DNA of 64,000 nt from Nocardioidaceae bacterium. Its GTDB lineage: Bacteria > Actinomycetota > Actinomycetes > Propionibacteriales > Nocardioidaceae. The stretch spans positions 248,001 to 312,000 of the forward strand of contig JAGIBL010000006.1 of the NCBI GenBank assembly GCA_017744365.1. The letters run 5' to 3'. Positions 19,516 through 43,832 of this stretch are shown here, in pieces. Position 1 is the stretch's first letter, and the number at the start of each line of letters is the position of its first letter. The translations under genes were made by a program, and so were the position numbers. The notes beneath the pieces are model-generated. The model saw nothing but the letters and a program-made list of their open reading frames with translations, ran no database searches and was not told the origin of the DNA.

Positions 19516-19576
19516 GCTTCGCGTTCCCCTCAGGATCGGCTCGTCCCGGCCGACCAGAGAGGAGATGGAGGTCGGG

Positions 19577-29287: not shown

Positions 29288-30538
29288 TCAGTCCCAGGGG
29301 TTCTCCAGCGCGACCGGAGGACGCGCGGTGTGCCAGTCGGTCATCGCCTGGAGACCCACCGCCGCGCCGAGGACGGCTCGGTCGCGCCCCGCGGCCCCGA
29401 CGAGCTGGACGCCGACGGGAAGTCCGCTGTCGCTGGGCGTCACGGGCAGGCTCACCACCGGCAGCCCGGTCAGGGACCAGCAGCCGGTCAACCGGTTGAT
29501 CCGCCGGCTCGTCTCGGTCAGGTCCCCGGCATCGGCGCGCGGGGCGACGAAGGGCGTGGCCGGCACCGCGACCAGGTCGACCTCCGCGAGGGTCGTCCCG
29601 ACATCGGCCCGCCAGCGCTGGGCCACGGCGAGCGCCCGCTCCGCCTCGCGGACGGTCACCGCCCGGCCCGCGTCGATCCGGCCGCGGATGCCCTCGGAGA
29701 CACGCGGGTCCTCCCAGAAGGGATACAGGTGCCGGACCGCCTCGGAGTTCTGCAGCGCGGCCATGGCCGCGTGCACCCGGTGCACGGCACGGAGCCCGCG
29801 AACGGGTCGCACCGCTGCTCCCGCGTCGCGCAGCACGTCCAGCATGTCCTCGAAGCCGCGCGCGACCGCCGGCTCCAGGTCGTCGAGGAAGTACTCCTCC
29901 GGCACCCCGACCCTGAGCGCGGACAGGTCCGCGGCCGCCTCGGGAATCACCGGCCAGCCCGCCAGCACCTCCAGCGCAGCGAGCACGTCCTCGGCGCTGC
30001 GGGCGATCGGGCCGACGACGTCCATGCTCGGGCTCAGCGGTGTGACCCCGAGGGTCGGCACCAGGCCGTGGCTCGGCCGGATCGTGGTGACGCCGCAGAA
30101 CGCCGCGGGGTTGCGCAGCGAGCCCCCGGTGTCCGTCCCGATGGCCAGGCGCACCAGTCCCGCGGCCACGGCGACGGCCGATCCCCCGCTGGAGCCACCG
30201 GGGATCCGGTCCGTGTCCCACGGGTTGCGGCAGGCGCCGTACGTCGGGTTCTGGGTGGTCGCCGCGAAGCTGAGCTCCTCGAGGTTCGCCTTGGCGACGA
30301 TCCTGGCCCCGGCGGCGCGCAGCCGCCGGACCACCTCCGCATCGGCCGCCGCGACCTGATGGGGCCCGCGCAGGCCGTCGGTCCGGGGCGTGCCCGCGAC
30401 GTCGATGTTGTCCTTGACGGCGACGGGCCAGGTCGCCAGTGGCCCGGTCGCAGCCTCCTGCCGCGGGGCGTCGTCCAGGAGCTGCGTGAAGGCCCGCAGC
30501 TCGGCGTCGAGGGCCCGGACGCGCGCCGGCACGGTCAC
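29288..30538 (-). CDS. Amidase-signature family hydrolase
   Basis: 416 residues from the GTG at 30538, overlapping the CoA-transferase stop by 4 bp (GTGA). The Ser-cisSer-Lys triad is present: Lys in VAVKDNIDVAGTP (about 42), cis-Ser in PGGSSGGSAVAVAAG (about 115) and nucleophile Ser in GTDTGGSLRNPAAFCG (about 137). It hydrolyses a carboxamide; AtzF-, GatA- and peptide-amidase-like members share these motifs, so the substrate is open. It is last in the S9 peptidase-methylaspartate lyase-CoA transferase-amidase operon, which suggests it removes an amide or carbamoyl group from a pathway compound. Confidence 0.88.
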   Translation of the reverse strand: MTVPARVRALDAELRAFTQLLDDAPRQEAATGPLATWPVAVKDNIDVAGTPRTDGLRGPHQVAAADAEVVRRLRAAGARIVAKANLEELSFAATTQNPTYGACRNPWDTDRIPGGSSGGSAVAVAAGLVRLAIGTDTGGSLRNPAAFCGVTTIRPSHGLVPTLGVTPLSPSMDVVGPIARSAEDVLAALEVLAGWPVIPEAAADLSALRVGVPEEYFLDDLEPAVARGFEDMLDVLRDAGAAVRPVRGLRAVHRVHAAMAALQNSEAVRHLYPFWEDPRVSEGIRGRIDAGRAVTVREAERALAVAQRWRADVGTTLAEVDLVAVPATPFVAPRADAGDLTETSRRINRLTGCWSLTGLPVVSLPVTPSDSGLPVGVQLVGAAGRDRAVLGAAVGLQAMTDWHTARPPVALENPWD

Positions 30539-31758
30539 GCCGCGCCGCCCGAGGTCGAGCGCGAAGGGCCGAAGGCGCCTCGTTCGGCGTAGTCCGCGAT
30601 CTCGCGCTGCGACAGTCCGAGCTCCTCGCCCAGGACCTGGTCCCGGTGCTCGTCGAGCCCGGGCGCCCTCGACGGCTCGGGCGTGGGCCACCAGGCGCGG
30701 CCACCGGTGCGGACGTGCCGGACCGTGCCGAACTTCGGGTGCTCGGTGCCGATGACCAGCTCGCGCGAGACCGTCTGCGCCTCGTCGAAGGCCTGCCCCA
30801 GCCCGTTGACCGGGCCGCAGGGCACCCCCTCGGCGCTGAGCAGCTCGACCCAGTGGTCGGTCCCGTGCCGCAGCAGCGCGCGGGCCAGCAGGTCGTCGAG
30901 CTCGGCCTGGTTCGCCTGCCGGGCGGGAATCGTCGAGAACCGAGGGTCCAGCGCCACCTCGGGGATGCCGAGCACGGACGTCAGCCGCTCGAAGAACTTG
31001 GGCTTCACGCAGGCGAGCATCAGCCAGCCGTCCGCGGTCTCGTAGGCGCCGAACGGCACGATCGACGGGTGTGCGGAGCGGGCCTTCCGAGGAGTCTCGT
31101 GGCCCCGGGTGAGGTACCAGGTCGCCGGGTAGGACAGCATCGACATCGCGGTGTCGAACAGGCTCACGTCGCACTCGCCGCCGACCCCGTCCCGGCGCGC
31201 GACGTGCACCCCGGCGAGCAGAGAGATCGCGGCCACCAGGCCGCCGGTGTAGTCGACGAGCGACAGCCCGCTCTTGGTGGGCGGTCCCCCGGGATCACCG
31301 GTGAGCGCCATCCACGCCGACAGCCCCTGCACCACGTAGTCGTACGCCGGCTCAGCGCGCCGGGGACCGGTCATCCCGTAGCCAGACAGCGAGCAGACCA
31401 CGAGCGCGGGGTTGACGTGCTTGAGGTCGTCGTACCGCAGCCCCAGCTTGTCCGGTACGTCGCCGCGCAGGTTGTAGGTCAGCGCGTCGGCCTCGCGCAC
31501 CATCCGGTGCAGGATCTCCATCCCGGCCGGCACCGAGAGGTCGAGGCTGACACTGCGCTTGTTGCGGTTGAAGGACTGGAAGAAGAGGCTGTCGTCGCCC
31601 TCGGCGAACGGCGGCACGTACCGGCCGATGTCGCCACCGGTGCGGGCGTCCTCGACCTTGATGACGTCCGCGCCCAGCTCGGCCAGGTGCAGCGACCCGA
31701 AGGGACCCGCGCCGTACTGCTCGACGGCGATGATCCTGAGGTCGCTCAGCCCGGTCAC
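30535..31758 (-). CDS. CaiB/BaiF (class III) CoA-transferase, candidate mesaconate CoA-transferase
   Basis: 407 residues from the GTG at 31758, overlapping the upstream stop by 4 bp. Class III family landmarks: LRIIAVEQYGAGPFGSLHLAELGADVIKVED at the N-terminus, NRNKRSVSLDL, and the catalytic Asp in VSLFDTAMSML (about residue 200). It moves CoA between acids. Placement immediately downstream of a methylaspartate ammonia-lyase gene makes mesaconate the likely acceptor, as in the haloarchaeal methylaspartate cycle where a CaiB-type succinyl-CoA:mesaconate transferase is used. Formyl- or oxalyl-CoA transferases share the fold, so specificity is inference from context. Confidence 0.88.
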   Translation of the reverse strand: MTGLSDLRIIAVEQYGAGPFGSLHLAELGADVIKVEDARTGGDIGRYVPPFAEGDDSLFFQSFNRNKRSVSLDLSVPAGMEILHRMVREADALTYNLRGDVPDKLGLRYDDLKHVNPALVVCSLSGYGMTGPRRAEPAYDYVVQGLSAWMALTGDPGGPPTKSGLSLVDYTGGLVAAISLLAGVHVARRDGVGGECDVSLFDTAMSMLSYPATWYLTRGHETPRKARSAHPSIVPFGAYETADGWLMLACVKPKFFERLTSVLGIPEVALDPRFSTIPARQANQAELDDLLARALLRHGTDHWVELLSAEGVPCGPVNGLGQAFDEAQTVSRELVIGTEHPKFGTVRHVRTGGRAWWPTPEPSRAPGLDEHRDQVLGEELGLSQREIADYAERGAFGPSRSTSGGAA

Positions 31759-32984
31759 GTCGTGCTCCTGCTCCCGATGACCGCAAGGGTGCGCGTCATC
31801 TCGTTCCTGGTCACCATCACGGCCTCGTCGACGCCCATCCCGGGACGCGCCAGCAGGACGTCCGCGCCGGTGCCCAGGGCGACGTGGGTGGCGATCCGCG
31901 CCGAGACCTCCGACTCGGTGCACGAGCCCCCGCAGTACGCCGCCACCCCGGCCTCGCGGCACGCGATGACGGCGCGAGCGGTGTCGTCGAGGCTGCCGAC
32001 GTCGGGCATCTTGATCTGCAGCACGTCCGCCGCGCCGGCGTCGAGGAACGCGAGGACGTCGTCGTAGGTGTTGCACCACTCGTCGGCGACGAGCTCGACC
32101 GGCGACCCCAGGGCGGCGAGCTCCTTGCGCAGCCGCAGCAGGGCGTCGATCTGCTCGGGCCGCGATCCGCCGCGCACCGGCTGCTCGACCCGGAGCGGGA
32201 AGGGTGCGCACCGGGCCGCCAGCCGGTCCAGGAAGGCGGCCACGTCGGCGAGCGAGCCGAACACCTCGCCCAGGGTGCCGTAGCAGTCGAGGTGGATCGT
32301 CGGCACGTAGTCGTCCCGGGCGCGGCGCTCCAGGATCCGGTCCCGGACGCGACCCGCGTAGTCGGCCAGCAGCCGGCCACCCGCACCGACGAGGAGGTCC
32401 GCGTTGTTGATCAGGCCGTGCGGCAGGCTGTCGACCTCGCGCAGCACCATCCGGTCGATCGCGCCGACCCGGTCCTCCCCGCACTGCGCCAGGATCGGCA
32501 CGGCCGCGACCGGCAGCGGGTTGCCGTACTCCTCGGCGACCACCTCGGCCATCGTCCGGCGCGAGCCCCGCGCCGTGGCGTCGAGAAGCGCCTGGCTGAC
32601 GCCGTACGCCACCGCGCGAGGAAGGGCGAGCTCCGCCATCCGTGCGGACTGGGCCCGGAACGAGGTGACCTCCTCGCCGACGAGGAGCTCCTCGATCGGA
32701 GCCCCCCAGCGCTCGATGGCGTCCGTGGCGACCAGGACGGGCTCGCGACCCGACCCGCCGGCGTACTGGACGGAGACACCGACACCGGTGGCGACCTGGC
32801 CGTCCTCGAGGACGAGCAGCACCTGCAGCGCCTCGCTCGGCTGCCGGATGGAGCGGTAGCCGTCGGTGAGCACCGGGCCGTCGTAGAAGTAGCCGTCCCG
32901 GACCGCGCCGGCGGCGATCGCGGCCTGGTCGTCGTTGCTGTACGTCCCGGTGCCCGGCACCAGGAGAACCTGCGAGATCCGCAT
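31755..32984 (-). CDS. mal: Methylaspartate ammonia-lyase (enolase superfamily)
   Basis: 409 residues, the typical MAL length (about 410). It should eliminate ammonia from 3-methylaspartate to give mesaconate. Family motifs: N-terminal MRISQVLLVPGTGTYSNDDQ, the His region PTIHLDCYGTLGEVFG (about 229), RVEQPVRGG, metal ligands around ADEWCNTYDDV, the catalytic Lys in QIKMPDVGS (about 323) and CGGSCTES. Its ATG overlaps the S9 peptidase stop by one base, and its own end overlaps the CoA-transferase start, so translation is coupled. No glutamate mutase gene is present in the window, leaving the source of methylaspartate open. Confidence 0.88.
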   Translation of the reverse strand: MRISQVLLVPGTGTYSNDDQAAIAAGAVRDGYFYDGPVLTDGYRSIRQPSEALQVLLVLEDGQVATGVGVSVQYAGGSGREPVLVATDAIERWGAPIEELLVGEEVTSFRAQSARMAELALPRAVAYGVSQALLDATARGSRRTMAEVVAEEYGNPLPVAAVPILAQCGEDRVGAIDRMVLREVDSLPHGLINNADLLVGAGGRLLADYAGRVRDRILERRARDDYVPTIHLDCYGTLGEVFGSLADVAAFLDRLAARCAPFPLRVEQPVRGGSRPEQIDALLRLRKELAALGSPVELVADEWCNTYDDVLAFLDAGAADVLQIKMPDVGSLDDTARAVIACREAGVAAYCGGSCTESEVSARIATHVALGTGADVLLARPGMGVDEAVMVTRNEMTRTLAVIGSRSTT

Positions 32985-34921
32985 CAGCCGACGTACCGGG
33001 AGAGCCAGTCGACGACCCGGGCGTTGTAGTCGTGCCGGAACCGGGGTGGGCTGGTGAACAGCATGTTGTGGCTCGCACCGGGGTAGATGACGATCTCGCT
33101 GGCGACGCCCAGCTCGCGCAGCGCCGTGTGCCACTGCCGCGCCTGGTCCAGCGGGCAGCGGACGTCGGCGCCGCCGTGCAGCAGCAGCGTCGGGGTCCGT
33201 ACCGAGGTGACCCGCGTGATCGGCGACATCGCGGCGTAGCGGTCCTCGTGCTCCCAGAACGGGCCGCCCCACTCGGTGGTCGAGAGGCCTCTCCGGTTGT
33301 CGCAGGTGCCGGCCGCGCTGCGCAGGTCGCTGATCACGCCCCCGCCGATCGCGGCCGCGAACCGGTCCGTCACGGTGGTCAGGTAGCAGGTCATGTAGCC
33401 GCCGTAGCTGTACCCGGTGACGGCGACGCGGGCGTCGTCGACCAGCCCCTCGGCGACCAGCTGGTCGACGGGCTCGAGGAAGTCCGCGGCGTCCGAGGTC
33501 CCCCAGTGCCCGGACACCGCCCGGGCGAAGTCCTCGCCGTAGCCGTCACTGCCCCGCGGGTTGAGGAGCAGCACGGTCCACCCGCGCGCGACCAGCTCGT
33601 GGTGGTACAGGTGCACGCTCTCGGCGGCACCGTTCCAGGCGTTGTGCGGACCGCCGTGGATGTCGACCAGCAGAGGCTGCGGCCCCGTCGCCGCGGGGTC
33701 GCGCATGACCCAGCCGACCACGGTGGTGCCGTCGGAGATCGTGAACGAGCGCTCCTCGCGCAGGGCGGGCACGGCGTCGCCGAGCTCGTCGCGGTACCGG
33801 GTCAGCCGCACCGGCTCGCCGGTGCCCAGGTCGAGGACGAAGACCTCGCCGAAGGAGTCCTGGTCGCTGCCGAGGAAGCACACCGTGTCGCCCGCGATGC
33901 TGAGGCTCGACACGTTGGACCCGGATCCGGCGAGGATCGGCGCGGCCTTCCCGGTGGCGAGGTCGAGACGGTGCGGAACGACGTACCCGCCCTCCCGGAG
34001 GCAGAGCACCACGGTTCCGTCGGCGGCCACGCGCGGGACCGAGCCCGGGTAGCCCGGCGCGCCGTACATCACCTGGCGGTCCCAGGACTCGGTGAGGTGC
34101 CGGTAGCCACCGCCGGCGAGGTCGACCAGCAGCAGCCCCGTGAACCGCGCCAGTCCTTCGGGATGCCCGCACACCAGCAGTCCGTCACCCTCAGGGGTCC
34201 ACGCCAGCGGTCCGGCGGTGCCGTCCGCAGGGCCCGCGAGCCGCGCGGTGCGCGTCGGATCGGCGAGATCCACCACGTACGCCGCGGAGTGGCGGGTCAG
34301 GTCGGCATCCGGGCTCGTCGCCGCGGTGAACGCGATCCGGGTGCCGTCGGGCGACCAGGCCGCGTTCCCCGCGTTCCACTCGCCGTGGGTGACCTGCTCG
34401 CAGACCCCGGTCTCGAGCTCGACGACGTACGCGTGCCTGCGCGGCGAGGAGAGCACGCCGTCCCCGTCGGCGTAGTAGTCGAGCCGGGCACTGACCACCG
34501 GCGCTCCCCAGGCCCAGCCCTCGGCGTCGGCGGGCGGGGTCGCCGCACCCACGAAGAGGAGACGCCGGCCGTCCGGGCTGAACACGGGCGCTCCGGCGCC
34601 TTCGGGGCGCGTGGTCAGCTGCGTCTCGACACCGGTCGCGACGTCGACCAGCCAGATCTGCGGCGGACCGGCGGCGGCCCGGAGGAAGGCGATCCGGGTC
34701 CCGTCCGGCGACCACGCAGGCGCCGTGTCCGACCCTGGCGGGGTCAGCGCCCGCGGCTCGCCCCCGGTCGCGGGAACCAGCCACAGCGACCGTACGGCGG
34801 TGTCGCTCGCGAGGTCGTCGACCCGGAGGACGTAGGCCACCGTCGACCCGTCCGGGCTGATCACCGGCTGCTCGGGAAGACGCACCCGCTCGATGTCGTC
34901 GACGGTCAGGTAGCGGTTCAA
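32984..34921 (-). CDS. S9-family peptidase (acylaminoacyl/prolyl-oligopeptidase type)
   Basis: 645 residues. The N-terminal ~380 residues form a beta-propeller with PD40-like units (AWSPDGTRIAFLR, VFSPDGRRLLFVG, AWSPDGTRIAFTA). The C-terminal alpha/beta-hydrolase domain carries the catalytic Ser in GYSYGGYM (about 505), Asp in HGGADVRCP (about 585) and His in GASHNM (about 616). It is cytoplasmic, with no signal peptide, and cuts short or N-acylated peptides. It is the first gene of a four-gene operon with methylaspartate lyase. A degenerate TTGT-N8-ACAA-like site lies about 70 bp upstream. Confidence 0.92.
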   Translation of the reverse strand: MNRYLTVDDIERVRLPEQPVISPDGSTVAYVLRVDDLASDTAVRSLWLVPATGGEPRALTPPGSDTAPAWSPDGTRIAFLRAAAGPPQIWLVDVATGVETQLTTRPEGAGAPVFSPDGRRLLFVGAATPPADAEGWAWGAPVVSARLDYYADGDGVLSSPRRHAYVVELETGVCEQVTHGEWNAGNAAWSPDGTRIAFTAATSPDADLTRHSAAYVVDLADPTRTARLAGPADGTAGPLAWTPEGDGLLVCGHPEGLARFTGLLLVDLAGGGYRHLTESWDRQVMYGAPGYPGSVPRVAADGTVVLCLREGGYVVPHRLDLATGKAAPILAGSGSNVSSLSIAGDTVCFLGSDQDSFGEVFVLDLGTGEPVRLTRYRDELGDAVPALREERSFTISDGTTVVGWVMRDPAATGPQPLLVDIHGGPHNAWNGAAESVHLYHHELVARGWTVLLLNPRGSDGYGEDFARAVSGHWGTSDAADFLEPVDQLVAEGLVDDARVAVTGYSYGGYMTCYLTTVTDRFAAAIGGGVISDLRSAAGTCDNRRGLSTTEWGGPFWEHEDRYAAMSPITRVTSVRTPTLLLHGGADVRCPLDQARQWHTALRELGVASEIVIYPGASHNMLFTSPPRFRHDYNARVVDWLSRYVG

Positions 34922-34987
34922 CCTTGCTCCTCCGATAGCGCGCTGGCCGGTTCACCCCGATCGTGGCAGCCGTCCGGACGGCGGCGC

Positions 34988-35003
34988 TGGTGTCGCGGCA
35001 CGA
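34988..35003. promoter_or_regulatory. Degenerate TTGT-N8-ACAA-like site upstream of the S9 operon
   Basis: TGGTGTCGCGGCACGA has the same 4-8-4 layout as the palindromes at 27496, 36754 and 45395, and its GGCAC core equals that of the pucR site. It differs from the full pattern at two outer positions. It lies 67-82 bp upstream of the S9 gene. Weak candidate on its own. Confidence 0.25.
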
Positions 35004-35063
35004 AATGGGTGCCCGCGGGCGGAGGCGGCGGACAAGGGACCGAGCCGGAGGCGACGACAGCGC

Positions 35064-36719
35064 CTACCCGCGCAGGAACAGCCGCAGCTGCAGCATCGCC
35101 GAGAGGCGCTCGTCGCGGTCGTCCAGGCGCAGCCCGGAGACCTCGGTCACCCGGCGCAGGCGGTAGCGGAAGGTGTTGGGGTGCACGTGCAGCGCAGCGG
35201 CCGCCGCCATGTTGTCGCCGAAGTGGTCGAGCCACGCGCGCAGGGTCGGCACCAGGTCGGAGCGGTGCTTCTCGTCGTGCTCGACCAAGCGGGCGATGGG
35301 ACCGCTCAGCCGCATCCCGCGCACGGTGACGAGGTCGGTCATCTCCATCATGAGCAGCTCGAAGGCGTGCTCGGAGGTCGAGCAGACCCGGTTCGCCTCG
35401 GGCGAGCTCCGCGCCAGCCGCAGTGCCCGGTCGGCCTCACCCCGCGCCCGGGCCAGGCCGTCGGCGTCGGCAGCGACCCCGCTGACGCCGATCGCTGCGG
35501 CGGAGCGGCGCCCGACCCGGGCGAGGAAGTCCTTCGCCATCCGCTGGCCGCGGTCGGAGTCGGCCTCGGTGCCGGCCGGGACCGGCACGATCCCGTAGAC
35601 CACGTCACCGACCAGCGCGGCCGAGGCGCCGGGCTGCGAGGAGCCGAGGTACATGTCGAACGCGTCGCCGATCCGCAGCAGCTCGGCAGCCCGGTCGCCG
35701 GGCATCCGGCTCGGCACCGCGGTGTCGTCGTCGGCGAGGGCGACCGCGAGCACCACCATCTGCCGTCGCGGCAGGCCGAGCCGGGCTGCCACCTCCTCGG
35801 CTTCCGGACCGCCGGCGAGCACCTGAGCGGTGAGGTCGGAGCGCATCCGCCGCTCGACGTTGGCATTGGCGCGGTGGCTGAGCAGGTGCACGGCGACGGT
35901 GCTCTGCAGGTCCCGGAAGTGCCGCATCTTCTCGTCCGAGAGGGGCTCCGGGACGGCTGCCCAGACCGAGCCGAGGATCTCGTCCCCGCCACGGATGCCC
36001 AGGACCACCCGCGGCATGGTGAACCCCCCGTGACCGCTCTCCGGCGGGTCGACGAACAGAGGCTCCTGGGTCCGGTAGAGCTCGCGGAAGATGCCGCGCT
36101 CCTGGAGGTCCTGGGTCGCCCACGGGGTGACCTGGCGGTTGAGGATCGCCCGCACCCGGGAGGGGTCGGCCTCCTCCTGCCGGATCGAGAAGGCGAGCAC
36201 CCGGGAGTCACGGTCCTCCACGGTGATGGGGGCGTCCAGGATCTCGGCGATCGCGTTGGCGAGGGCGAACAGGTCGCCCGTTGGAACGCCGCCGAGCGAC
36301 GAGCCCCCGAACAGCCCCGAGGTCGTGGTGAGCAGCGGGGCGAGGGTGGCGGCCAGCTGCATCCAGGACGCCTCGTTGCCGAGCGCCAGCACCGGGGCCG
36401 GCAGTGGTCGTCCCTGCAGCGACTCCGCCGAGCTCTCGCGCAGGATCAGCGCGCCGCCGTCGAGGTCACCGATGCGGTCGAGCAGGGCCGCCGCCTGGTC
36501 CCCCGGCTGCACGCCGACCCCGAGCACGAGCGGCCGACGCGGCCAGGCGACCTGGTCGACGTGGTCGAAGATCACCAGTCCGTCGACCTGCTGGTCGAGG
36601 TCCTGGTCCTCGAACGCGGGCCGGAGAACGGTGTGCCCGGCGTCCTCCAGGATGCGCGCGAGCGTCGGCGCCGGGGCGTCGAGGACCACGCTCTCGGGTC
36701 GGTGCTCCTGGCGGCTCAC
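35064..36719 (-). CDS. PucR-family transcriptional regulator
   Basis: 551 residues from the GTG at 36719 (VSRQEHRPES). The first ~230 residues are a PucR-type sensing region, the middle resembles a GGDEF-like/CdaR domain, and the C-terminus is the PucR helix-turn-helix: AAAAALHVHPNTFRYRLRRV (about 500-520) followed by LDDRDERLSAMLQLRL. Such proteins control purine, amino acid or GABA catabolism, usually with a pathway compound as effector. It sits in the middle of the island between the NSAR-like and S9 genes and is the only regulator gene there, so it is the natural candidate to control the island. A perfect palindrome lies 35 bp upstream. Confidence 0.9.
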   Translation of the reverse strand: MSRQEHRPESVVLDAPAPTLARILEDAGHTVLRPAFEDQDLDQQVDGLVIFDHVDQVAWPRRPLVLGVGVQPGDQAAALLDRIGDLDGGALILRESSAESLQGRPLPAPVLALGNEASWMQLAATLAPLLTTTSGLFGGSSLGGVPTGDLFALANAIAEILDAPITVEDRDSRVLAFSIRQEEADPSRVRAILNRQVTPWATQDLQERGIFRELYRTQEPLFVDPPESGHGGFTMPRVVLGIRGGDEILGSVWAAVPEPLSDEKMRHFRDLQSTVAVHLLSHRANANVERRMRSDLTAQVLAGGPEAEEVAARLGLPRRQMVVLAVALADDDTAVPSRMPGDRAAELLRIGDAFDMYLGSSQPGASAALVGDVVYGIVPVPAGTEADSDRGQRMAKDFLARVGRRSAAAIGVSGVAADADGLARARGEADRALRLARSSPEANRVCSTSEHAFELLMMEMTDLVTVRGMRLSGPIARLVEHDEKHRSDLVPTLRAWLDHFGDNMAAAAALHVHPNTFRYRLRRVTEVSGLRLDDRDERLSAMLQLRLFLRG

Positions 36720-36753
36720 GGCTCGATCGTAGGCTCCCGCGGTGCGCCGGGTC

Positions 36754-36769
36754 TTGTGCGTCGGCACAA
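36754..36769. promoter_or_regulatory. Palindrome TTGTGCGTCGGCACAA upstream of pucR-type gene
   Basis: Inverted repeat TTGTGC-GTCG-GCACAA with perfect 6-bp arms, 35 bp upstream of the PucR start and 35 bp past the end of the NSAR-like gene. Related 16-bp sites occur in other island promoters, so this is a candidate autoregulatory PucR operator. Confidence 0.5.
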
Positions 36770-36803
36770 CTGCTGCGCTCGGGATGGTGCAGCGGCACCA
36801 GGC

Positions 36804-37925
36804 TCAGGAGGCGACGGGCAGCCACTCCCGGTGCACGGTCACGGCCTCGAGGACCTCGGCGATCGGCGTGACCCCGAGCCCCGGGCCGGTCGGGACCGCC
36901 ATGAAACCGTCCTGCAGCACCAGCGGCTCGGTGATGTCCCGCTGGTAGAAGCGCGACGAGGCCGAGACGTCACCCGGGAGCAGCATGCCGGGCAGCGCGG
37001 CGAGCGCGGCGTTGGCGGCCCTGCCCAGCCCGGTCTCCAGCATGCCGCCGCACCAGACCGGGACGTCGTGGGCGCGGCAGACGTCGTGCACCCGGCGCGC
37101 CTCGAGGTAGCCACCGACCCGGCCGGCCTTGATGTTCACCACCCGGCAGGCGCCGGCCCTGATCGCGTCGGCGGCGGCACGTGCCGAGGTGATCGACTCG
37201 TCGAGGCAGATCGGGGTGCGCAGGTGGCGCGCCAGCTCGGCGTGGCCGAGCACGTTCTCCTCCGCCATCGGCTGCTCGATGAGCAGCAGGTCGAAGTCGT
37301 CGAGCTTCCGGAGCTGGTCGACGTCGGCGAGCGTGTACGCCGTGTTGGCGTCGACCTGCAGCGGAACGTCCCCGAACTCGTCGCGGATCACCTTCACCGC
37401 GGCGACGTCCCAGCCCGGCTCGATCTTGAGCTTGATCCGCCGGTAGCCCTCCTCGAGGTAGCCGCCGACGGTCGCGACCAGCTCGTCGAGGGTGTCCATG
37501 ATGCCGACGGAGACTCCCGCCGGGACCGCGGTGGCCACGGCTCCCAGCGCCCGGCTCATCGGCGTCCCGGCCGCCCGCAGCTCGGCGTCCCAGAGCGCCA
37601 TCTCCAGCGCGGCCTTGCTCATCCGGTGGCCGCGGTAGCGCTCCAGCACGGGCCCGACCAGGTTCACGTCGACGACGGCGAGATCGGCGAGCGCCGGCAC
37701 CAGGAAGTCGCGCAGGGTGGTCATCGCCGCGTCGACGTACTCCGAGGCGTAGAGCGGGTACTGCGCGGCGACGCACTCGCCCCATCCCTCGGCGGCCGAG
37801 GTGACGGCACGGAGGAGCAGCGCGTCCTTGCTGGTCTGCGTCCCGAACGACGTCCGGAACGGAGACACCAGCGGCATCCTGACCCGGATCAGCTCGATGC
37901 CCTCCAGCTTCGCGTCCACACTCAC
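36804..37925 (-). CDS. Enolase-superfamily N-succinylamino acid racemase / o-succinylbenzoate synthase-like
   Basis: 373 residues with the NSAR/OSBS type of muconate-lactonizing fold. The N-terminal capping domain starts LEGIELIRVRMPLVSPFRTS. Barrel motifs: KLKIEPGWD (catalytic Lys, about 165), QVDANTAYT (Asp ligand, about 193), LIEQPM, LDESITS (about 243) and NIKAGRVGG (second Lys, about 265), then WCGGMLETGLGRAAN. OSBS makes a menaquinone precursor; NSAR racemises N-succinylamino acids. No other men genes are nearby, while a COG3375 GNAT and an M20 deacylase lie about 8 kb away, favouring NSAR. Confidence 0.85.
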   Translation of the reverse strand: MSVDAKLEGIELIRVRMPLVSPFRTSFGTQTSKDALLLRAVTSAAEGWGECVAAQYPLYASEYVDAAMTTLRDFLVPALADLAVVDVNLVGPVLERYRGHRMSKAALEMALWDAELRAAGTPMSRALGAVATAVPAGVSVGIMDTLDELVATVGGYLEEGYRRIKLKIEPGWDVAAVKVIRDEFGDVPLQVDANTAYTLADVDQLRKLDDFDLLLIEQPMAEENVLGHAELARHLRTPICLDESITSARAAADAIRAGACRVVNIKAGRVGGYLEARRVHDVCRAHDVPVWCGGMLETGLGRAANAALAALPGMLLPGDVSASSRFYQRDITEPLVLQDGFMAVPTGPGLGVTPIAEVLEAVTVHREWLPVAS

Positions 37926-38063
37926 AGCTCTCCACCTCGTTCTGGTCCGGCGGGCCTGACGCCCCTGCAGCCGAAGTACACCGAGCAGCGCGCCTCCGCG
38001 TCCGGTGCCGGATCACCAAGTTGGGGCTCCCGCGCTGTGCGAGTGCCCTACCGGCCGACGCCG

Positions 38064-39308
38064 TCAGCCGCGCGTCAGGTCCCGTACGGCGTCGCCGAGC
38101 GCGTCCAGCCCGCTCGCGATCCAGGGCAGCTCCGCGGGCCGGTCCGAGGCGAGCGCGCGCAGGCGCTGCTCGTCGTTCTCGCCGTACAGCATCGGGGTGG
38201 CGATCCGCAGCGCGAGCCGATCGGGAAGGTCCCCGAAGGCAGTGCCGGGCAGGGTCGCGATGCCGTGCCGGGCGAGCAGGGTGGTCGCGAGTCCGGCCGC
38301 GTCGCGGACGTCCTGCCCGGCCAGCGCCTCCCGGCGGCCGGACAGGTCCGGGTAGAGGTAGAAGCCTGCCGTGGGGCCCGCCACCTCGGCGCCGGCCGAC
38401 GTCAGGACGTCCGCGGTCGCCCGGGCCACGCGACCGTGCAGGAGCCGGCTCCGTGCGATCCGCTCGCGGAGCTCGTCCGGCTCGCCGAGCGCCCACGCGG
38501 CTGCGTGCTGCACCGGTTGCGGGGCCGAGGACCACAGCTCGCTCGCCGCGACGACGACGCGGTCGCGCAGGGCGGAGAGCTCGGCCGGGAACCGGGCCAG
38601 CCCGATCCGCCATCCGCCCAGCGCCAGGCTCTTGCTCAGGCCCGAGGTGGTGATCGTGCGCGCGGGAAGCACCTGGGCCGGGGTCAGCACCTCGCGACCC
38701 TCGTCGTGCACGAGGTCCAGGTAGATCTCGTCGGAGAGCACCACGAGGCCGAGCCGGTCGGCGGCGGCGCACAGCCGTCGTACGGTGTCGGGCCGCGCGA
38801 CCGTGCCGGTCGGGTTGTCGGGCAGGGTCACGAGCACGGCCGTCGGCCGGGTGCCCCGCCGCGCCAGCCGCTGGTACTCGGCCACGAGCAGCTCCGGGTC
38901 CGGGACACCGCCCTCGCCGGGCAGCGTGGGCACCGGGACGGCCACCTGGCCGAGCAGCAGGTTCTGGGCGGCGTAGCTGACCCAGCTCGGCCGCGGCAGC
39001 AGGACCGGCCCCCCGAGCGCCTGGAAGAGCGCGTACAGCAGCGGCTTGCTGCCCGGCCCGGCGACGACCTGGGAGCGTTCGGTCGGCACCCCTCGGCGCG
39101 ACCAGTAGCCCGCCGCGGCGTCCCGCAGCACGTCGGCTCCGGCCACCGGTCCGTAGTCCGCGCGGTGCGCGTGCTCGGAGAGCCGGGCGACGAGCGCGGG
39201 GTGCACCGGGATGCTCGCCTCCCCGAAGCCCAGCGCCACCGTGGCCAGGCCCGCGGCCCGCCGGCGTGCGATCTCCTCGTTCACCGCGAGGGTCGGCGAG
39301 ATGCTCAC
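38064..39308 (-). CDS. PLP-dependent class I/II aminotransferase
   Basis: 414 residues from the GTG at 39308, overlapping the S12 hydrolase stop by 4 bp. Fold-type I aminotransferase: PGSKPLLYALFQALGG, LPDNPTGTVARPD (Asn for PLP), SDEIYLDLVHDEG (Asp and Tyr), Schiff-base Lys in SGLSKSLALGGWRIG (about 225) and a C-terminal Arg region ALRIATPMLYG. It would remove the amino group from an amino acid released in the island; substrate not predictable. It is last in the operon that starts with the M17 peptidase. A 138-bp gap separates it from the NSAR-like gene. Confidence 0.88.
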   Translation of the reverse strand: MSISPTLAVNEEIARRRAAGLATVALGFGEASIPVHPALVARLSEHAHRADYGPVAGADVLRDAAAGYWSRRGVPTERSQVVAGPGSKPLLYALFQALGGPVLLPRPSWVSYAAQNLLLGQVAVPVPTLPGEGGVPDPELLVAEYQRLARRGTRPTAVLVTLPDNPTGTVARPDTVRRLCAAADRLGLVVLSDEIYLDLVHDEGREVLTPAQVLPARTITTSGLSKSLALGGWRIGLARFPAELSALRDRVVVAASELWSSAPQPVQHAAAWALGEPDELRERIARSRLLHGRVARATADVLTSAGAEVAGPTAGFYLYPDLSGRREALAGQDVRDAAGLATTLLARHGIATLPGTAFGDLPDRLALRIATPMLYGENDEQRLRALASDRPAELPWIASGLDALGDAVRDLTRG

Positions 39309-40834
39309 GAGGCCTCCCTCCGGGTGAGCGGGATGTTGGCGTAGGTGGTCCGCAGGCCGTCCAGCAGCAGCGTCTCGCCCGTGGCCGAGCGGTAGCGACC
39401 CGGAGCCACCTCGACCAGCTGCAGGGTGATCGGGTCCTCCAGCGAGCCCCGCCGCGGCAGGTCGATCACGTCGCTCTCGGCGTCGTGCCGCAACCGGTAC
39501 CACCCCAGCGGCACGCCGTTGACGATCGCCGCGTAGGTACCCAGGGCTTCCTCGGGGAGCCGGGCCGGGGGCAGACCGGGAACCGCCGTCCGGTACCGCA
39601 CCTCGCCACTCGGCCGGTCCAGCAGGTAGCGGACGTGACCGTCGGAGTCCCGGAGGAAGTCGGCGTCCGGCGGTGGCGATTCCGGTTCGACTCGGAGCAC
39701 GTCGCCCAGCCGTCCCACGTAGGTCCCGGCGGCGTCCTCGGGCACCGAGGAGCCCGCGGGCTGCCGGGACCCGGGCACCGGGGCGCTCCGGACCGCACCG
39801 GCTCCGGCCAGGAGACGCACGATCTCGGCGGCCAGCTCGTTCTGGACGTCGTGGTCGACCGCGTTGGTGAGCACCGCCGCTCCGATGCCGAGGTCGGGGA
39901 GCCAGAGCGCCTGGCAGAGGAACCCGAAGCCGGCACCTCCGTGGTGCAGGACCCGGACACCCGGTTCCCAGGTGTCGACGTAGACGCCGAGCCCGTACCC
40001 GCGCACCTGCTCGGCGCGCAGCCGCGGGAAGTCGAGGTGCTGCGCGACCAGCTCGGGCCGCAGCACGGAACGACCCTGGTCGAGCTGGAAGGACAGGTAG
40101 CCCAGCAGGTCGTCGACGCAGGTGTAGAGGCCGCCGGAGGGAACCATGGGCACCCGCCGGGGGACGGCGACGCCGGCGTCGGCGAAGGCGCGGGAGTGCC
40201 CGATCGCACGGTCGGGCTCGGCGTCGTACCGGGCGAAGTCGAAGGTGCTGCGGTCCAGGGCGAGTGGCGCGAAGAGCCGCGTGCGCATGAACTCCGCGAA
40301 AGGCAGGCCGCTCGCGGCGGCGACCGCGTGCCCGGCCAGGTCGATTCCCAGGTTGGAGTACTCGTGGTGGTGCCCGACCGGGAAGCGCAGGTAGGTCTCG
40401 GCGATGCTGGCGAGGTGCTCCTCGAAGGAGGCCTCGCCGACCTCGTAGTTGGAGCCGACCGGCGCTTCGTGGGTGAGGCCCGCCGTGTGCGTGAGCAGGT
40501 GCCGCAGCGTGATCCGGCGCTCCGGGTGCTCCTCGAGGTCGCTGCGCACGGTGAGGTCGGGGAGGTAGGTCACGACGGGCTCGTCGAGCTCGGCCAGCCC
40601 TTCCTGGACGGCCAGCAGGACGCCGGTCGCGGTGACGAGCTTGGAGGTCGACTGGACGCTGAACATCGTCCGCGTGCCGACCGGACTGCCGGCTCCGGTG
40701 CCGCCGAAGCCCTGGGACCAGAGCGGTCCGGTGCGGTCGCACAATCCCACCGCGATCCCCGGCACCCCGTGCTCGGCCGCCAGCCGCGGCACCAGCGTGG
40801 CGAGGTGGTCGATCAGTACGTCGACGTCAGGCAC
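39305..40834 (-). CDS. Serine beta-lactamase-like hydrolase (S12; D-aminopeptidase type)
   Basis: 509 residues from the GTG at 40834 (GGGAG 9 bp upstream); an in-frame ATG at 40861 is possible. Penicillin-binding-protein fold: nucleophile motif STSK (about 63), YSN (about 159) and HHGG (about 296, in place of KTG). The C-terminal ~170 residues form an extra beta-domain, as in D-aminopeptidase and alkaline D-peptidase relatives. No signal peptide, so cytoplasmic and probably not an antibiotic resistance enzyme. Family members often act on D-residue peptides or amides, which fits the NSAR-type racemisation genes. Its start overlaps the ammonia-lyase end by 8 bp. Confidence 0.85.
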   Translation of the reverse strand: MPDVDVLIDHLATLVPRLAAEHGVPGIAVGLCDRTGPLWSQGFGGTGAGSPVGTRTMFSVQSTSKLVTATGVLLAVQEGLAELDEPVVTYLPDLTVRSDLEEHPERRITLRHLLTHTAGLTHEAPVGSNYEVGEASFEEHLASIAETYLRFPVGHHHEYSNLGIDLAGHAVAAASGLPFAEFMRTRLFAPLALDRSTFDFARYDAEPDRAIGHSRAFADAGVAVPRRVPMVPSGGLYTCVDDLLGYLSFQLDQGRSVLRPELVAQHLDFPRLRAEQVRGYGLGVYVDTWEPGVRVLHHGGAGFGFLCQALWLPDLGIGAAVLTNAVDHDVQNELAAEIVRLLAGAGAVRSAPVPGSRQPAGSSVPEDAAGTYVGRLGDVLRVEPESPPPDADFLRDSDGHVRYLLDRPSGEVRYRTAVPGLPPARLPEEALGTYAAIVNGVPLGWYRLRHDAESDVIDLPRRGSLEDPITLQLVEVAPGRYRSATGETLLLDGLRTTYANIPLTRREAS

Positions 40835-42047
40835 GTCCGGCCACTCCCGTCGTCTCGGCATCCGTCCGACTGGTCCCAGCCTGCACCCCGGCGGTCAGAT
40901 CGGCGTACGACGCGGGGTCGGTGACCCCCTCGGTGTCGAAGAGCACGACCGTGGAGGCCGGCCGCAGCAGCGACCCGGCACGGGAGTCGAGCCGGAGCCG
41001 CCGCAGTCCGGCCAGGCTGGCGGCCCCGCTCTCGCTCGTCGCGACCCCGAGGGCGGCGAGGTCGCGGACGGCCGCGACGGCCTCGATGTCGCTGACCCGG
41101 GTCGCTGCCCGGATCCCTCGCTGCAGCAACGGCCAGGCGGCCAGGGAGACCTCACCGCAGTTCAGCCCCGCCATGCTGGACTCGTGCGGGCCCGGGACGA
41201 CGACCCGCTCCCCCGACGCGAGCGACTGCCACAGGCAGTCCGCGCTGGTGGGCTCGGCAGAGACCACGCTGCAGGACCCGCTGGCCAGAGCCCGGACGGC
41301 CGCCGAGGCGAAGGCACCCACCCCGACCGGCACGACCGCGACGTCGATGCCGGCGTCCTCGCCCAGGGCGGCGGCGAGCTGCTCCACGGTCTCGGTGAAG
41401 ATCGTCGAGTAGCCGGTGACGACCGCTTCCGGGATCTCGGTGTAGCCGGGCCACGAGGTGTCGGAGACCAGCAGCTCGTTCCCCGAGCGGGCCGCCTCGG
41501 TCGCGGCGCGCCGGACGGCGTCGTCGTAGGAGCCTTCCACGACGACCACCTCCGCACCTTCCCCCCGGATCGCGTCGACCCGCGCCTCGCTCATGTCCGC
41601 GGGCACGAAGATCCTGCTGCCGAGGCCGAGGAGACGGGCCAGGTGGGCGACCGCGCGACCGTGGTTCCCGTCGGTCGCCGTGGAGAGCACCACCTCGCCT
41701 CGGAGCCCTGCGGCAGCGCGCGCCAGGTCGTCGTACGTCGTGAAGCCAGCCTGTCCGACCTCCCGGCCGACCTCTCGGCCGACCTCTCGGGCGACCGCGA
41801 CCGAGACCGCCCAGCTGGCACCGACCACCTTGAACGACGGGAGGCCCAGTCGCTCCTGCTCGTGCTTGACGAACACGTGCCGGACGCCGACCTGATCGGC
41901 GAGCTCCGGAGCCGGGACCAGCGGCGAGGCGGCGAAGCCGGGCATCGAGCGGTGGAAGCGGGCCACGTCCCGGGGCACTCGCTCGGCCGCGCCGCGCAGC
42001 GCGGACCAGGCGGGGTTCCAGAGCACGTGGCTCTCGAAGTGGGTCAT
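40827..42047 (-). CDS. Diaminopropionate ammonia-lyase-like PLP enzyme (fold type II)
   Basis: 406 residues from the ATG at 42047. Fold-type II PLP enzyme: Schiff-base Lys in GLPSFKVVGAS (about 72), phosphate/Asn loop ATDGNHGRAVA, VPVGVGAFASAAV and SSMAGLNCGEVS. This set is closer to diaminopropionate ammonia-lyase (which makes pyruvate and two ammonia) than to threonine dehydratase. Another beta-substituted amino acid is possible. The segment after the Lys contains a 12-bp tandem repeat giving REVGREVGREVG. It starts one base after the CitE-type lyase stop. Confidence 0.82.
   Translation of the reverse strand: MTHFESHVLWNPAWSALRGAAERVPRDVARFHRSMPGFAASPLVPAPELADQVGVRHVFVKHEQERLGLPSFKVVGASWAVSVAVAREVGREVGREVGQAGFTTYDDLARAAAGLRGEVVLSTATDGNHGRAVAHLARLLGLGSRIFVPADMSEARVDAIRGEGAEVVVVEGSYDDAVRRAATEAARSGNELLVSDTSWPGYTEIPEAVVTGYSTIFTETVEQLAAALGEDAGIDVAVVPVGVGAFASAAVRALASGSCSVVSAEPTSADCLWQSLASGERVVVPGPHESSMAGLNCGEVSLAAWPLLQRGIRAATRVSDIEAVAAVRDLAALGVATSESGAASLAGLRRLRLDSRAGSLLRPASTVVLFDTEGVTDPASYADLTAGVQAGTSRTDAETTGVAGRA
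41756..41791. repeat. Three 12-bp tandem repeats inside the ammonia-lyase gene
   Basis: CGACCTCYCGGC is repeated three times without a gap, encoding REVG three times on the minus strand, about 20 residues after the PLP Lys. It lengthens a surface helix in frame and probably arose by slippage. Confidence 0.8.
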
Positions 42048-42048
42048 C

Positions 42049-42858
42049 TCAGGGTTCCTCTCCCACGCCGAGGATGCGGCGTGCACGTTCCACCACCGGC
42101 AGGTCCACCAGTCCGCCGCCGACGACCGTCGCCGCCCCGCCGGACCGACCGTCCGCCTCGACCACCGCGCGCGCCCAGGCCACCTGCTCCGGGGTCGGGG
42201 CGAACCCTGCCCGGATCGGCTCCACCTGCGCCGGGTGCACCGCGAGCTTCCCGGCGAAGCCGTCGCGCCGGGACTGCTCGGCGTCCGTTCGTGCCCTCGC
42301 CGCGTCGGTCAGCGAACGGGTGACCCCGTCGACGGGCGCGGCCGAGCCGGCCGCCCGGGAGGCCAGGACCGCGCGGTGGCGCACCTGGGCGATCAGCCCC
42401 GAGTCCTCGTCGCAGCCGAGGTCGAGGGCGAGGTCGACGGTGCCGAGCGCCACGCCCTCGACGCCGTCGGCACCCAGGATGTCGGGGATGCGCTCGACGC
42501 CGGCGGCGGTCTCGACCAGGGCCAGGACGGGGGCACCTGCCAGGTCGTGCACTTCGTGCAGGTCCCGCGCCCGCTCGGCCTTCGGGACGATCACCCCACG
42601 GAGCCCGGCGCGCCCGGCGATCGCGCGCAGGTCGTCACGGTGCCAGGCGGACCCCACCGGATTGACCCGGACCCACGCCTCCCCGCCCTGCGACAGCCAC
42701 GCGCCGACGGCCTCGCGGGCGGCGCCCTTCGTGTCGGGGGCCACCGCGTCCTCCAGGTCGCAGATCACCTGGTCGGCGCCGGTGGCCACGGCCTTCGCGA
42801 ACCTGTCCGGGTGGCTGCCGGGCACGAAGAGCCAGACCGGCCCACGGCGGGTGCTCAT
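42049..42858 (-). CDS. HpcH/HpaI-CitE-type CoA-ester lyase (methylmalyl/citramalyl-CoA lyase candidate)
   Basis: 269 residues from the ATG at 42858, overlapping the MaoC gene stop (ATGA). TIM-barrel CitE family: RGPVWLFVPGSHPDRFAKAV, ICDLEDAVAPDTK (acidic metal region, about 34), WVRVNPVGS (conserved Arg), LALVETAAGVE (Glu ligand), GTVDLALDLG and GKLAVHPAQVEPI. It cleaves a beta-hydroxyacyl-CoA such as beta-methylmalyl-CoA (to glyoxylate and propionyl-CoA), malyl-CoA or citramalyl-CoA. Coupling to a mesaconyl-CoA hydratase-like gene supports the C5 substrate. Single-subunit CitE-like proteins are not citrate lyase complexes, and citD and citF are absent. Confidence 0.87.
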   Translation of the reverse strand: MSTRRGPVWLFVPGSHPDRFAKAVATGADQVICDLEDAVAPDTKGAAREAVGAWLSQGGEAWVRVNPVGSAWHRDDLRAIAGRAGLRGVIVPKAERARDLHEVHDLAGAPVLALVETAAGVERIPDILGADGVEGVALGTVDLALDLGCDEDSGLIAQVRHRAVLASRAAGSAAPVDGVTRSLTDAARARTDAEQSRRDGFAGKLAVHPAQVEPIRAGFAPTPEQVAWARAVVEADGRSGGAATVVGGGLVDLPVVERARRILGVGEEP

Positions 42859-43832
42859 GCGACCACCCCGACGAAGGTCCAGTCCAGGACCGGGCGGCGT
42901 CCGGCCGCCCAGGTCTCCGCGTGCAGGACCGCCAGCACCGCGCCGTCCCGGTAGTCCTCGGTGCCCAGCACGGAGACCCTGGTCGTCAGCGTGTCGTCCT
43001 CGTGCACGGGTCCGACGTGGTCGCACGCGAACCACTCGGTGACCGTGACCAGGCCGGGCACCAGCCGGCAGACCTGGCCGAGCGCGAGTCCGATCGCGTG
43101 GCCGCCGTACACCAGGCGTCGACCACCGCCGGCGGACGCATCGTGGTGGACCGCCGCGACGTTGCCGGTGAGCCGGGCGAGCTCCGGGGCGCTCGAGACC
43201 ACGTCGCCGTAGGAGAGCTCGGCCCGGTACCCGACGGTGACCGGCGTCGGTTCGCCCTGGCGCAACGGCTCCAGGTCCCAGCCGTCGAGCCAGGTGGGTG
43301 TCGTCAGCGGGCGCAGCCCTGCAGGAGCGACGAAAGCCTCCCCGGCGGCCGCGGCGGGAGCGGCCGCTGGAGACCCGTCGCGACAGCGGACCAGGGCGCA
43401 CCGGTCGAGGGTGAGAACCACCCGGCCGGCCTGGTCGCGGGTGGTCATCCGGAGGAGCACCTTGCCCCGGGGCGGACGGTCGGCGCGGGCACGGGCCCGG
43501 GTCGTGGCGAGCACCTCGGTGGTCGTGGTCAGCGTGTCCCCGGCAGAGGCCGTCGCGTGGAAACGGAGGTCGCGGTAGAAGAGGTTCGCCACGACCTGGC
43601 GGGTGAGCACGCTCGACTGGCCGATGGCGATGTCCCACACCAGACCGGGATGAGCCAGCCCGGGCCGGCCGGTGACCCGCTCGGCCAGGGCGTCGTCCGC
43701 AGCCAGCGCCAGCCGGTCACCGAGGATCGCCCGGTGCACGGCCCGGCTGCCCGCGTCGATCGTCTGCCCGGGCGCGGAGACGACCGCGCCGACCTCGATG
43801 TCCTCGAAGTACGGACCGTCGCGCCCGGTCAC
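42855..43832 (-). CDS. mch: MaoC double-hotdog hydratase, mesaconyl-CoA hydratase/methylmalyl-CoA dehydratase-like
   Basis: 325 residues from the GTG at 43832, overlapping the M17 stop by 4 bp. Two hotdog domains: PYFEDIEVGAVV to about residue 150, and a second with RRLVYGGHAIGLALG (about 235) and the C-terminal VLDWTFVGV. The pattern FEDxxxG, then RxVYGGH is that of Mch, which hydrates mesaconyl-CoA to beta-methylmalyl-CoA in the methylaspartate cycle and the ethylmalonyl-CoA route. A general enoyl-CoA hydratase role cannot be ruled out. The catalytic Asp/His pair is not obvious in the first half, as expected for a fused dimer with one active site. Confidence 0.8.
   Translation of the reverse strand: MTGRDGPYFEDIEVGAVVSAPGQTIDAGSRAVHRAILGDRLALAADDALAERVTGRPGLAHPGLVWDIAIGQSSVLTRQVVANLFYRDLRFHATASAGDTLTTTTEVLATTRARARADRPPRGKVLLRMTTRDQAGRVVLTLDRCALVRCRDGSPAAAPAAAAGEAFVAPAGLRPLTTPTWLDGWDLEPLRQGEPTPVTVGYRAELSYGDVVSSAPELARLTGNVAAVHHDASAGGGRRLVYGGHAIGLALGQVCRLVPGLVTVTEWFACDHVGPVHEDDTLTTRVSVLGTEDYRDGAVLAVLHAETWAAGRRPVLDWTFVGVVA

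Follow-up and report, generated by a model that had tools for sequence, protein, structure and literature searches.

How does an actinobacterium come by substrate for methylaspartate ammonia-lyase (MAL), and what becomes of the mesaconate formed, if its genome holds no recognizable glutamate mutase E subunit? The question is raised by a stretch of 64,000 nucleotides from a Nocardioidaceae bacterium (GenBank assembly GCA_017744365.1, contig JAGIBL010000006.1, positions 248,001 to 312,000; hereafter the window), for which an initial annotation had described MAL, a CaiB-type class III coenzyme A (CoA)-transferase, a CitE-type lyase and a MaoC-type hydratase as a mutase-less module split over two operons. 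All four reading frames are open and lie on the minus strand, the MAL and CaiB genes overlapping by 4 bases, as do those for CitE and MaoC. The split into two runs is correct as far as these four go, yet each run forms part of a single cassette of 20 genes (22149-48725, roughly 26 kb), in which 12 of the 19 intergenic gaps measure between -8 and 1 bases. Gene content and comparison with related loci make it likely that this cassette spreads horizontally and serves to break down peptides, with the four genes as its branch for 3-methylaspartate; a mutase would then be unnecessary because methylaspartate arrives with the peptides.

The anchor of this proposal is MAL itself (31755..32984, minus strand). 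The protein, with both the MAAL_N and MAAL_C domains, scores 447.5 bits against TIGR01502, far above the curated cut-off of 286.15, its residues 2-405 covering positions 1-407 of the 408 in the model, and it aligns over its full length with the solved β-methylaspartase 1kcz (E 9.6e-110), which we take to be the enzyme of C. tetanomorphum. Residue positions were transferred through the 1kcz alignment, with functional roles as given in a study of the enzyme (PMC7241714). Among the MALs of the window-like cassettes, here called type A, the residues Q73, Q172, H194, D238, Y240, E273, D307, Q329, K331, Y356, G359, L384 and M389 are kept in six of six. As for substitutions, T360S is shared by all of these proteins, five have F170L and a single one has C361S; in the window enzyme the catalytic Lys and His, the Mg ligands and the methyl pocket are present, the changes being T360S and F170L. 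A MAL carrying T360S is described in the same study as kinetically comparable with the native enzyme (PMC7241714). The assignment of MAL is thus upheld, and the prediction that it deaminates 3-methylaspartate to mesaconate has strong family and active-site support.

The cassette as a whole recurs in other genera. A search for related loci yielded 54. In three of them, from Microtetraspora malaysiensis, Nonomuraea spiralis and Jiangella muralis, whose MALs are 72-73% identical to that of the window, 19 of the 20 genes are found in identical order, the missing one being a pyridoxal phosphate (PLP)-dependent aminotransferase gene. A further genome, G1067, holds the same 19 genes (PucR is cut by the edge of the fetched piece); G773 has 13 of 13 within the fetched 20 kb, its 19 kb overlap being ~99% identical to Microtetraspora; and G1136 repeats the Jiangella muralis cassette and was counted once. 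A diverged and rearranged version with 17 of the 20 genes occurs in G921, where CitE, DUF885 and the aminotransferase were not found in the 60 kb read. By contrast with the shared gene order, the 95 proteins encoded in the flanks of the three named carriers and the window include a single weak cross-genome pair (32% identity, E 1e-10), located at different places. The Microtetraspora and Nonomuraea blocks share 99% DNA identity in two pieces of 14.8 and 11.0 kb, interrupted by an unaligned 0.2-0.6 kb between the PucR and NSAR genes, and this identity ends 111 and 452 bases beyond the gene block. The GC content of the cassette is 72-73% in all four, against 66-69% in the flanks of the three named hosts. 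The idea of a chance run of genes is rejected because the order is conserved between unrelated flanks.

We also reject, for now, the idea that the cassette is an old part of the lineage, given same-genus flanks without it and the rarity of MAL in the order. Homologues of the genes that flank it in the window (18484-19515 and 48748-49587) lie 2.7 kb apart in G940 and 5.7 kb apart in G952, with no cassette between them in either of the two same-genus genomes fetched; in the window they are 29.2 kb apart, with a sensor kinase gene (19565-21673) also between, and the intervening genes differ in all three. MAL exceeds the cut-off in four of 396 genomes of a phylum sample and in two of 293 of an order sample (the window's own and G585), and is in none of the six other same-genus genomes listed in the latter. 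The cassette therefore appears, on this comparative evidence, to move between actinobacterial genera as a single block. Just outside it on contig 45 of Nonomuraea spiralis (~35677-43764; L098-L099) stands a set of four genes that, by eye, we presume to be a Wadjet-type defence system.

The absence of a glutamate mutase, already proposed from the window, extends to the genome: in the host assembly (G000; 100% complete, 0.03% contamination) neither PF06368 nor TIGR01503 detects an E subunit, the one subunit searched for. A TIGR01503 search of nine genomes gave three clear positives (G034, G059 and G179, with the mutase beside MAL) and found no E subunit in the three named carriers (G687, G688 and G689), G690 or G585. 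Elsewhere the association is common, the E gene being present at 34 of 56 MAL loci surveyed and at 24 of the 35 where at least 5 kb flanks MAL on both sides; the 11 that lack it comprise three type A cassettes, G585, L034, five Chloroflexi and L073. Both glutamate fermentation by the methylaspartate pathway and a methylaspartate cycle were rejected for the host because mutase E is absent. The window shares with the haloarchaeal methylaspartate cycle (Gm, Mal, Mct, Mch, Mcl, Ms) MAL, a class III CoA-transferase, a two-domain MaoC protein and a CitE-fold lyase, and malate synthase is likewise found in the host genome, as had been suggested for checking (PF01274, 360 bits, which speaks for presence of the family only); the cassette genes, however, are set in a peptide-uptake block. 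The close kinship with the lower half of that cycle implied by the initial annotation is not borne out, since CaiB reaches 220.6 bits against a cut-off of 700 for the haloarchaeal Mct model and CitE 18.5 against 500 for Mcl, compared with 142.9 for RipC/Ccl. Actinobacteria with homologues of the two-domain Mch and of Mct, without Mal and Gm, have been reported (PMC5592240).

Given that mutase E was not found and that the cassette encodes an Opp transporter together with seven members of peptidase or amidase families, METHYLASPARTATE would most simply be derived from imported peptides; the earlier suggestion that methylaspartate comes from such peptides, itself conjectural, fits the cassette. 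The peptidase setting had been recognized in that annotation, which overlooked a set for converting D- to L-residues (N-acylamino acid/N-succinylamino acid racemase or NSAR, a GNAT protein and an M20 hydrolase), a diaminopropionate ammonia-lyase, and the block-wide conservation and mobility. In the scheme that we propose, peptides would be imported by the Opp transporter and cut inside the cell by the S9, S12, M17, M20, DUF885 and amidase products, in none of which a crude hydropathy scan revealed an obvious signal peptide. D-residues would be N-acylated by the GNAT protein, racemized by NSAR and deacylated by the M20 hydrolase, while 2,3-diamino acids would be deaminated by the diaminopropionate ammonia-lyase. 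MAL would turn 3-methylaspartate into mesaconate, CaiB would convert this to mesaconyl-CoA, MaoC would hydrate the ester and CitE would cleave the product.

Import is represented by an Opp/Dpp-type ABC transporter ATPase (22149..22895, minus strand; PF00005, oligo_HPY; 69-73% identical in the Microtetraspora, Nonomuraea, Jiangella and G1067 cassettes), an OppC-type permease fused to an OppD-type ATPase in a single reading frame (22897..24804, minus; PF00528 and PF00005; 76-79% in relatives), an OppB-type permease (24806..25771, minus; PF00528; 82-83% in relatives) and a family 5 solute-binding protein, OppA (25799..27199, minus; PF00496). Genes were called by a simple GC-position script that leaves starts uncertain, chiefly those of oppA and M17: the real oppA start probably lies upstream, where the open frame has, by eye, a lipoprotein-like signal, and relatives' reading frames of 476-499 amino acids suggest that the N-terminus of the M17 leucyl aminopeptidase (43829..45118, minus; PF00883, 313 bits) is longer than called. 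The other hydrolases are a DUF885 protein, a proposed peptidase (27626..29272, plus; PF05960, 456 bits), an amidase-family hydrolase (29288..30538, minus; PF01425, 299 bits), an S9 prolyl-oligopeptidase-family peptidase (32984..34921, minus; PF00326, PD40), an M20 peptidase (47406..48725, plus; NF005913, 548.7 bits, cut-off 382) and an S12 hydrolase of β-lactamase fold (39305..40834, minus; PF00144). The last is a proposed D-specific peptidase; its top solved match is 7spn ('IS11'), and most of its 137 matches are β-lactamases, with an alkaline D-peptidase and a D-amino acid amidase among the rest. A PucR/CdaR-type protein (35064..36719, minus; PF13556, PF17853; 77-78% in relatives) is the proposed regulator. 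The PLP aminotransferase (38064..39308, minus; PF00155), which overlaps the S12 gene by 4 bases, is confined to the window copy, with no counterpart in the relatives' cassettes read.

The families NSAR (36804..37919, minus; 1sja, E 2e-156), GNAT acyltransferase (46594..47409, plus) and M20 deacylase (45458..46597, plus; PF01546) co-occur in the cassette, and their D-to-L activity is predicted. The GNAT protein, a proposed N-succinyltransferase, was assigned through its predicted model because no Pfam or NCBIfam model matched: the model (pLDDT 80.9) has as its best PDB match a GNAT protein (E 7e-10), which points to that fold. Nine other places with this family were found, and at three of the four fetched M20, GNAT and NSAR stand side by side, the fourth having M20 and no NSAR; the recurring trio supports a D-to-L amino acid module. 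This family of ~270 amino acids without a Pfam or NCBIfam model thus lies between M20 and NSAR at three of four loci outside the cassettes (L090-L093). The cassette shares NSAR, a GNAT-fold protein and an M20 hydrolase with the NSAR D-to-L pathway, and differs in that they belong to a more extensive peptide cassette, which also encodes MAL and diaminopropionate ammonia-lyase, and in that NSAR stands apart from the M20-GNAT pair. The diaminopropionate ammonia-lyase (40827..42047, minus; 5ygr, E 8e-47) scores 291.7 bits against NF006058, above its cut-off of 276, and falls under the cut-offs of TIGR03528 and TIGR01747.

What happens to mesaconate depends on three enzymes of less specific annotation. 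A route by CoA esters, as first proposed, is upheld; the choice between its two possible cleavages is finer. The proposed mesaconate CoA-transferase, CaiB (30535..31758, minus; PF02515, 374 bits), is under the cut-off of all seven NCBIfam models that it matches, with its best score for succinate-glutarate CoA-transferase (259.6 bits) and 220.6 and 215.6 bits for the mesaconate and oxalate models. The CitE/RipC-type CoA-ester lyase (42049..42858, minus; PF03328) matches 8khl (E 1e-46), presumably a citramalyl-CoA lyase, and among its seven matched NCBIfam models RipC/Ccl is the top one, at 142.9 bits and under the cut-off of 375; two further CitE homologue matches occur in the host genome, on contig 7. 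The two-domain MaoC/hotdog protein, a proposed mesaconyl-CoA hydratase (42855..43832, minus), has weak Pfam matches, but it aligns with Rv0216 (2bi0, E 8e-72) and with the solved β-methylmalyl-CoA dehydratase 8hgn (E 1e-20), a His in its C-terminal half lining up by eye with that of 8hgn. Rv0216 of Mycobacterium tuberculosis, its nearest solved relative, is annotated as hypothetical, and the context of the cassette suggests a C5-dicarboxyl-CoA substrate for Rv0216-like hydratases.

Relatives of CaiB at 48-61% identity occur in 28 of 394 genomes of the class besides three type A carriers. At the nine such loci read, with neighbour families assigned from one or more examples each, acyl-CoA dehydrogenase is present in nine, MaoC and MmgE/PrpD in eight each and CitE in seven; neighbours of itaconate/methylsuccinate type (MaoC, acyl-CoA dehydrogenase and MmgE/PrpD) occur at eight. 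A degradation cluster for itaconate and methylsuccinate is described as comprising CoA-transferase, hydratase, (S)-citramalyl-CoA lyase, acyl-CoA dehydrogenase and MmgE/PrpD (PMC12290011). CaiB, MaoC and CitE of the window are kin of its three enzyme types, whereas the cassette has neither acyl-CoA dehydrogenase nor MmgE/PrpD and would obtain mesaconate from MAL instead. The gene content around the CaiB relatives and the closeness of CitE to RipC/Ccl point to citramalyl-CoA and then to acetyl-CoA and pyruvate. Of the two product pairs originally offered, these are accordingly predicted to be moderately the more likely, and propionyl-CoA and glyoxylate less so.

The latter pair would arise through β-methylmalyl-CoA, a route that we regard as somewhat unlikely. 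It draws on the alignment of MaoC with the dehydratase 8hgn across both domains and on the metabolism of the host, in which malate synthase and crotonyl-CoA carboxylase/reductase were found and isocitrate lyase was not, so that the host would be expected to handle such CoA esters; the difference between 142.9 bits for RipC/Ccl and 18.5 for the haloarchaeal lyase model, and the eight of nine CaiB-kin loci of itaconate/methylsuccinate type, argue the other way. The same gene complement suggests an ethylmalonyl-CoA pathway, and the host could use the products of either cleavage. Its crotonyl-CoA carboxylase/reductase and malate synthase genes are on contigs 7 and 12, and in the region around the former, which was inspected for Mch and Mcl, nothing resembles CaiB, CitE or MaoC of the cassette at E 1e-3.

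The association of MAL with a CoA-transferase is wider than the type A cassette. Four plasmid loci from alphaproteobacteria were read out of 17 matching records, with incomplete gene tables. In Rhizobium sullae and Gemmobacter fulvus an operon GlmS-(GlmL)-GlmE-MAL-CaiB-CoA ester lyase presents MAL followed by CaiB and a CitE-type lyase, as in the window set, with CaiB 31-34% and CitE 30-33% identical to the window's; these operons differ in possessing the mutase and a fumarase-family gene, and list no MaoC, NSAR or Opp-peptidase set. On Sinorhizobium meliloti pC and a plasmid of Mesorhizobium 131-3-5, MAL-CaiB-CoA ester lyase occurs with no mutase E in 29 kb, and here NSAR, diaminopropionate ammonia-lyase and the Opp-peptidase set are not among the listed genes. 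The Mesorhizobium locus (L202) has a P1 family peptidase and an alanine racemase ~6-8 kb from MAL-CaiB-lyase, which together with a D-Ala-D-Ala ligase-type gene span ~4-8 kb upstream of it. In L034, a metagenome-assembled genome from the Actinomycetes, MAL directly precedes a CaiB 61% identical to the window's, in another neighbourhood and without mutase E.

A second type of cassette emerged from a sample of 249 genomes of the order of G687, in which 18 have MAL at E 1e-40. Three of these (G687, G773 and G921) are type A; 14 of the other 15 were fetched and, with G585, form a set of 15 loci of 20 kb each (type B). M55 D-aminopeptidase, M20, DUF885 and an amidase fusion are present in all 15, Opp, M19 and the creatininase family in 14 and the beta-aspartyl-peptidase family in 13, while CaiB adjoins MAL in 14 and a RipB/Mch-like MaoC occurs in six; CitE, NSAR and diaminopropionate ammonia-lyase are in none of these 20 kb pieces. 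A quickly built tree, some of whose branches are long, groups the type A MALs in one clade (support 100) and the type B MALs with L034 in another (98); L034 may lie inside or outside type B. It seems that MAL, usually with the CoA-transferase, was recruited into peptide-uptake cassettes more than once, unless a shared old origin is hidden from the tree. All 15 type B MALs (L103, L140-L153) have a His at the position of Q329, which in studied MALs holds the C4 carboxylate, making a change of substrate possible. Among the Chloroflexi, MAL stands with Opp-type genes and no mutase E nearby in L069, L076 and L081; these are the three with Opp genes out of six loci inspected (the others being L072, L074 and L084), from which no inference was drawn given the poor gene calls.

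These recurrences bear on a more radical alternative, in which MAL has come to act on a different amino acid and the CoA genes handle some unconnected acid, such as oxalate, succinate/glutarate or a fatty acyl group. The best score of CaiB, the closeness of its oxalate and mesaconate scores, and the T360S and F170L changes in the MAL pocket speak for such drift; yet the remaining catalytic and methyl-pocket residues are kept, the adjacency of MAL and CaiB recurs in both cassette types, L034 and all four plasmid loci read, and an Mch/RipB-like hydratase accompanies the pair in six of the 15 type B loci. We therefore judge it decidedly improbable.

Several observations nevertheless weigh against a 3-methylaspartate branch built as proposed. 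CaiB, CitE and MaoC are each under every NCBIfam cut-off matched, and the two-domain build of MaoC, like that of 8hgn and the uncharacterized Rv0216, favours the other cleavage. MAL was found within 15-16 kb at none of the nine CaiB-kin loci, so that CaiB by itself is no marker of mesaconate. CitE was not found in G921 or at any type B locus out of 15, and the 20 kb of G585 lack CaiB; the steps are thus not always tied to MAL. The window NSAR lies 7.5 kb from the M20-GNAT pair and on the opposite strand, and the chemistry assigned to them is carried over from the general NSAR D-to-L pathway of NSAR, GNAT succinyltransferase and desuccinylase. Import of the peptides by the Opp transporter is a prediction, and the scheme as a whole is built on genes and their comparison.

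Which peptides might be consumed is a further question. A tentative and rather unlikely answer is that soil actinobacteria eat lipopeptide antibiotics of the malacidin, amphomycin and friulimicin kind, which combine 3-methylaspartate, 2,3-diamino acids and D-residues. Malacidin A has (2S,3S)- and (2R,3S)-3-methylaspartate, 3-methyl-diaminopropionate and D-valine (PMC8372822), and amphomycin and friulimicin have threo-3-methylaspartate, diaminobutyrate residues and D-pipecolate; the review cited for the latter two writes the diaminobutyrate as 2,3 in its text but as 2,4 in one legend (PMC12473245). The match of the cassette's families for these three residue classes with malacidin A, and largely with amphomycin and friulimicin as there described, is suggestive only, being predicted from genes; by our reasoning, inversion at C2 would turn (2R,3S)-methylaspartate into the (2S,3S) form, the substrate of MAL. 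Use of 3-methyl-diaminopropionate by the ammonia-lyase and of acylated methylaspartate by NSAR is hypothetical, however, and apart from the generic amidase the cassette encodes nothing that would obviously act on pipecolate, hydroxyaspartate or the lipid tail. Doubtful in its entirety, and less likely than the choice of substrate alone, is the full picture of a self-contained, recently moving cassette that would consume such antibiotics by D-specific cleavage, D-to-L inversion including that of (2R,3S)- to (2S,3S)-methylaspartate, deamination of 2,3-diamino acids and burning of methylaspartate from MAL through the CoA steps.

Cyanobacterial peptides containing D-erythro-methylaspartate, microcystin or nodularin, are a very improbable substrate. 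D-erythro-methylaspartate is a residue of microcystin, and the cassette does encode an S12 hydrolase, but Microtetraspora, Nonomuraea and Jiangella, the named hosts, are soil-type genera, the diaminopropionate ammonia-lyase would have no role, and no open-access paper was found that contains both 'methylaspartate ammonia-lyase' and 'microcystin'.

Returning to the 3-methylaspartate branch of a peptide cassette, its parts are known. A mutase-less module, which the initial annotation considered new when embedded in a peptidase island, is as such also on the Sinorhizobium meliloti and Mesorhizobium plasmids, and as MAL-CaiB-CitE occurs on alphaproteobacterial plasmids with or without a nearby mutase, the link between MAL, CoA-transferase and CitE is not new either. 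What appears to be new is the setting of the MAL module inside an assembled mobile cassette for D-peptides. No description of such a cassette was found in the open-access literature, where 'methylaspartate' and 'diaminopropionate ammonia-lyase' were found to co-occur in a single paper, in two columns of one gene table and unlinked.

On this assignment MAL would probably serve a purpose other than glutamate fermentation or the haloarchaeal cycle, namely the use of ready-made 3-methylaspartate. That two differently built cassettes couple MAL, mostly together with a CoA-transferase, to oligopeptide uptake and D-peptide enzyme families suggests that peptides containing 3-methylaspartate are really available where these bacteria live. 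Candidate contexts are gained at the same time for DUF885, the Pfam-less GNAT protein and the Rv0216-like hydratases. If the peptides are non-ribosomal antibiotics, the cassette would offer a testable pathway for antibiotic turnover; and should the lipopeptide proposal prove true, the cassette would allow a whole class of antibiotics to serve as a source of carbon and nitrogen, with MAL put to a use that has nothing to do with glutamate fermentation or acetate assimilation.

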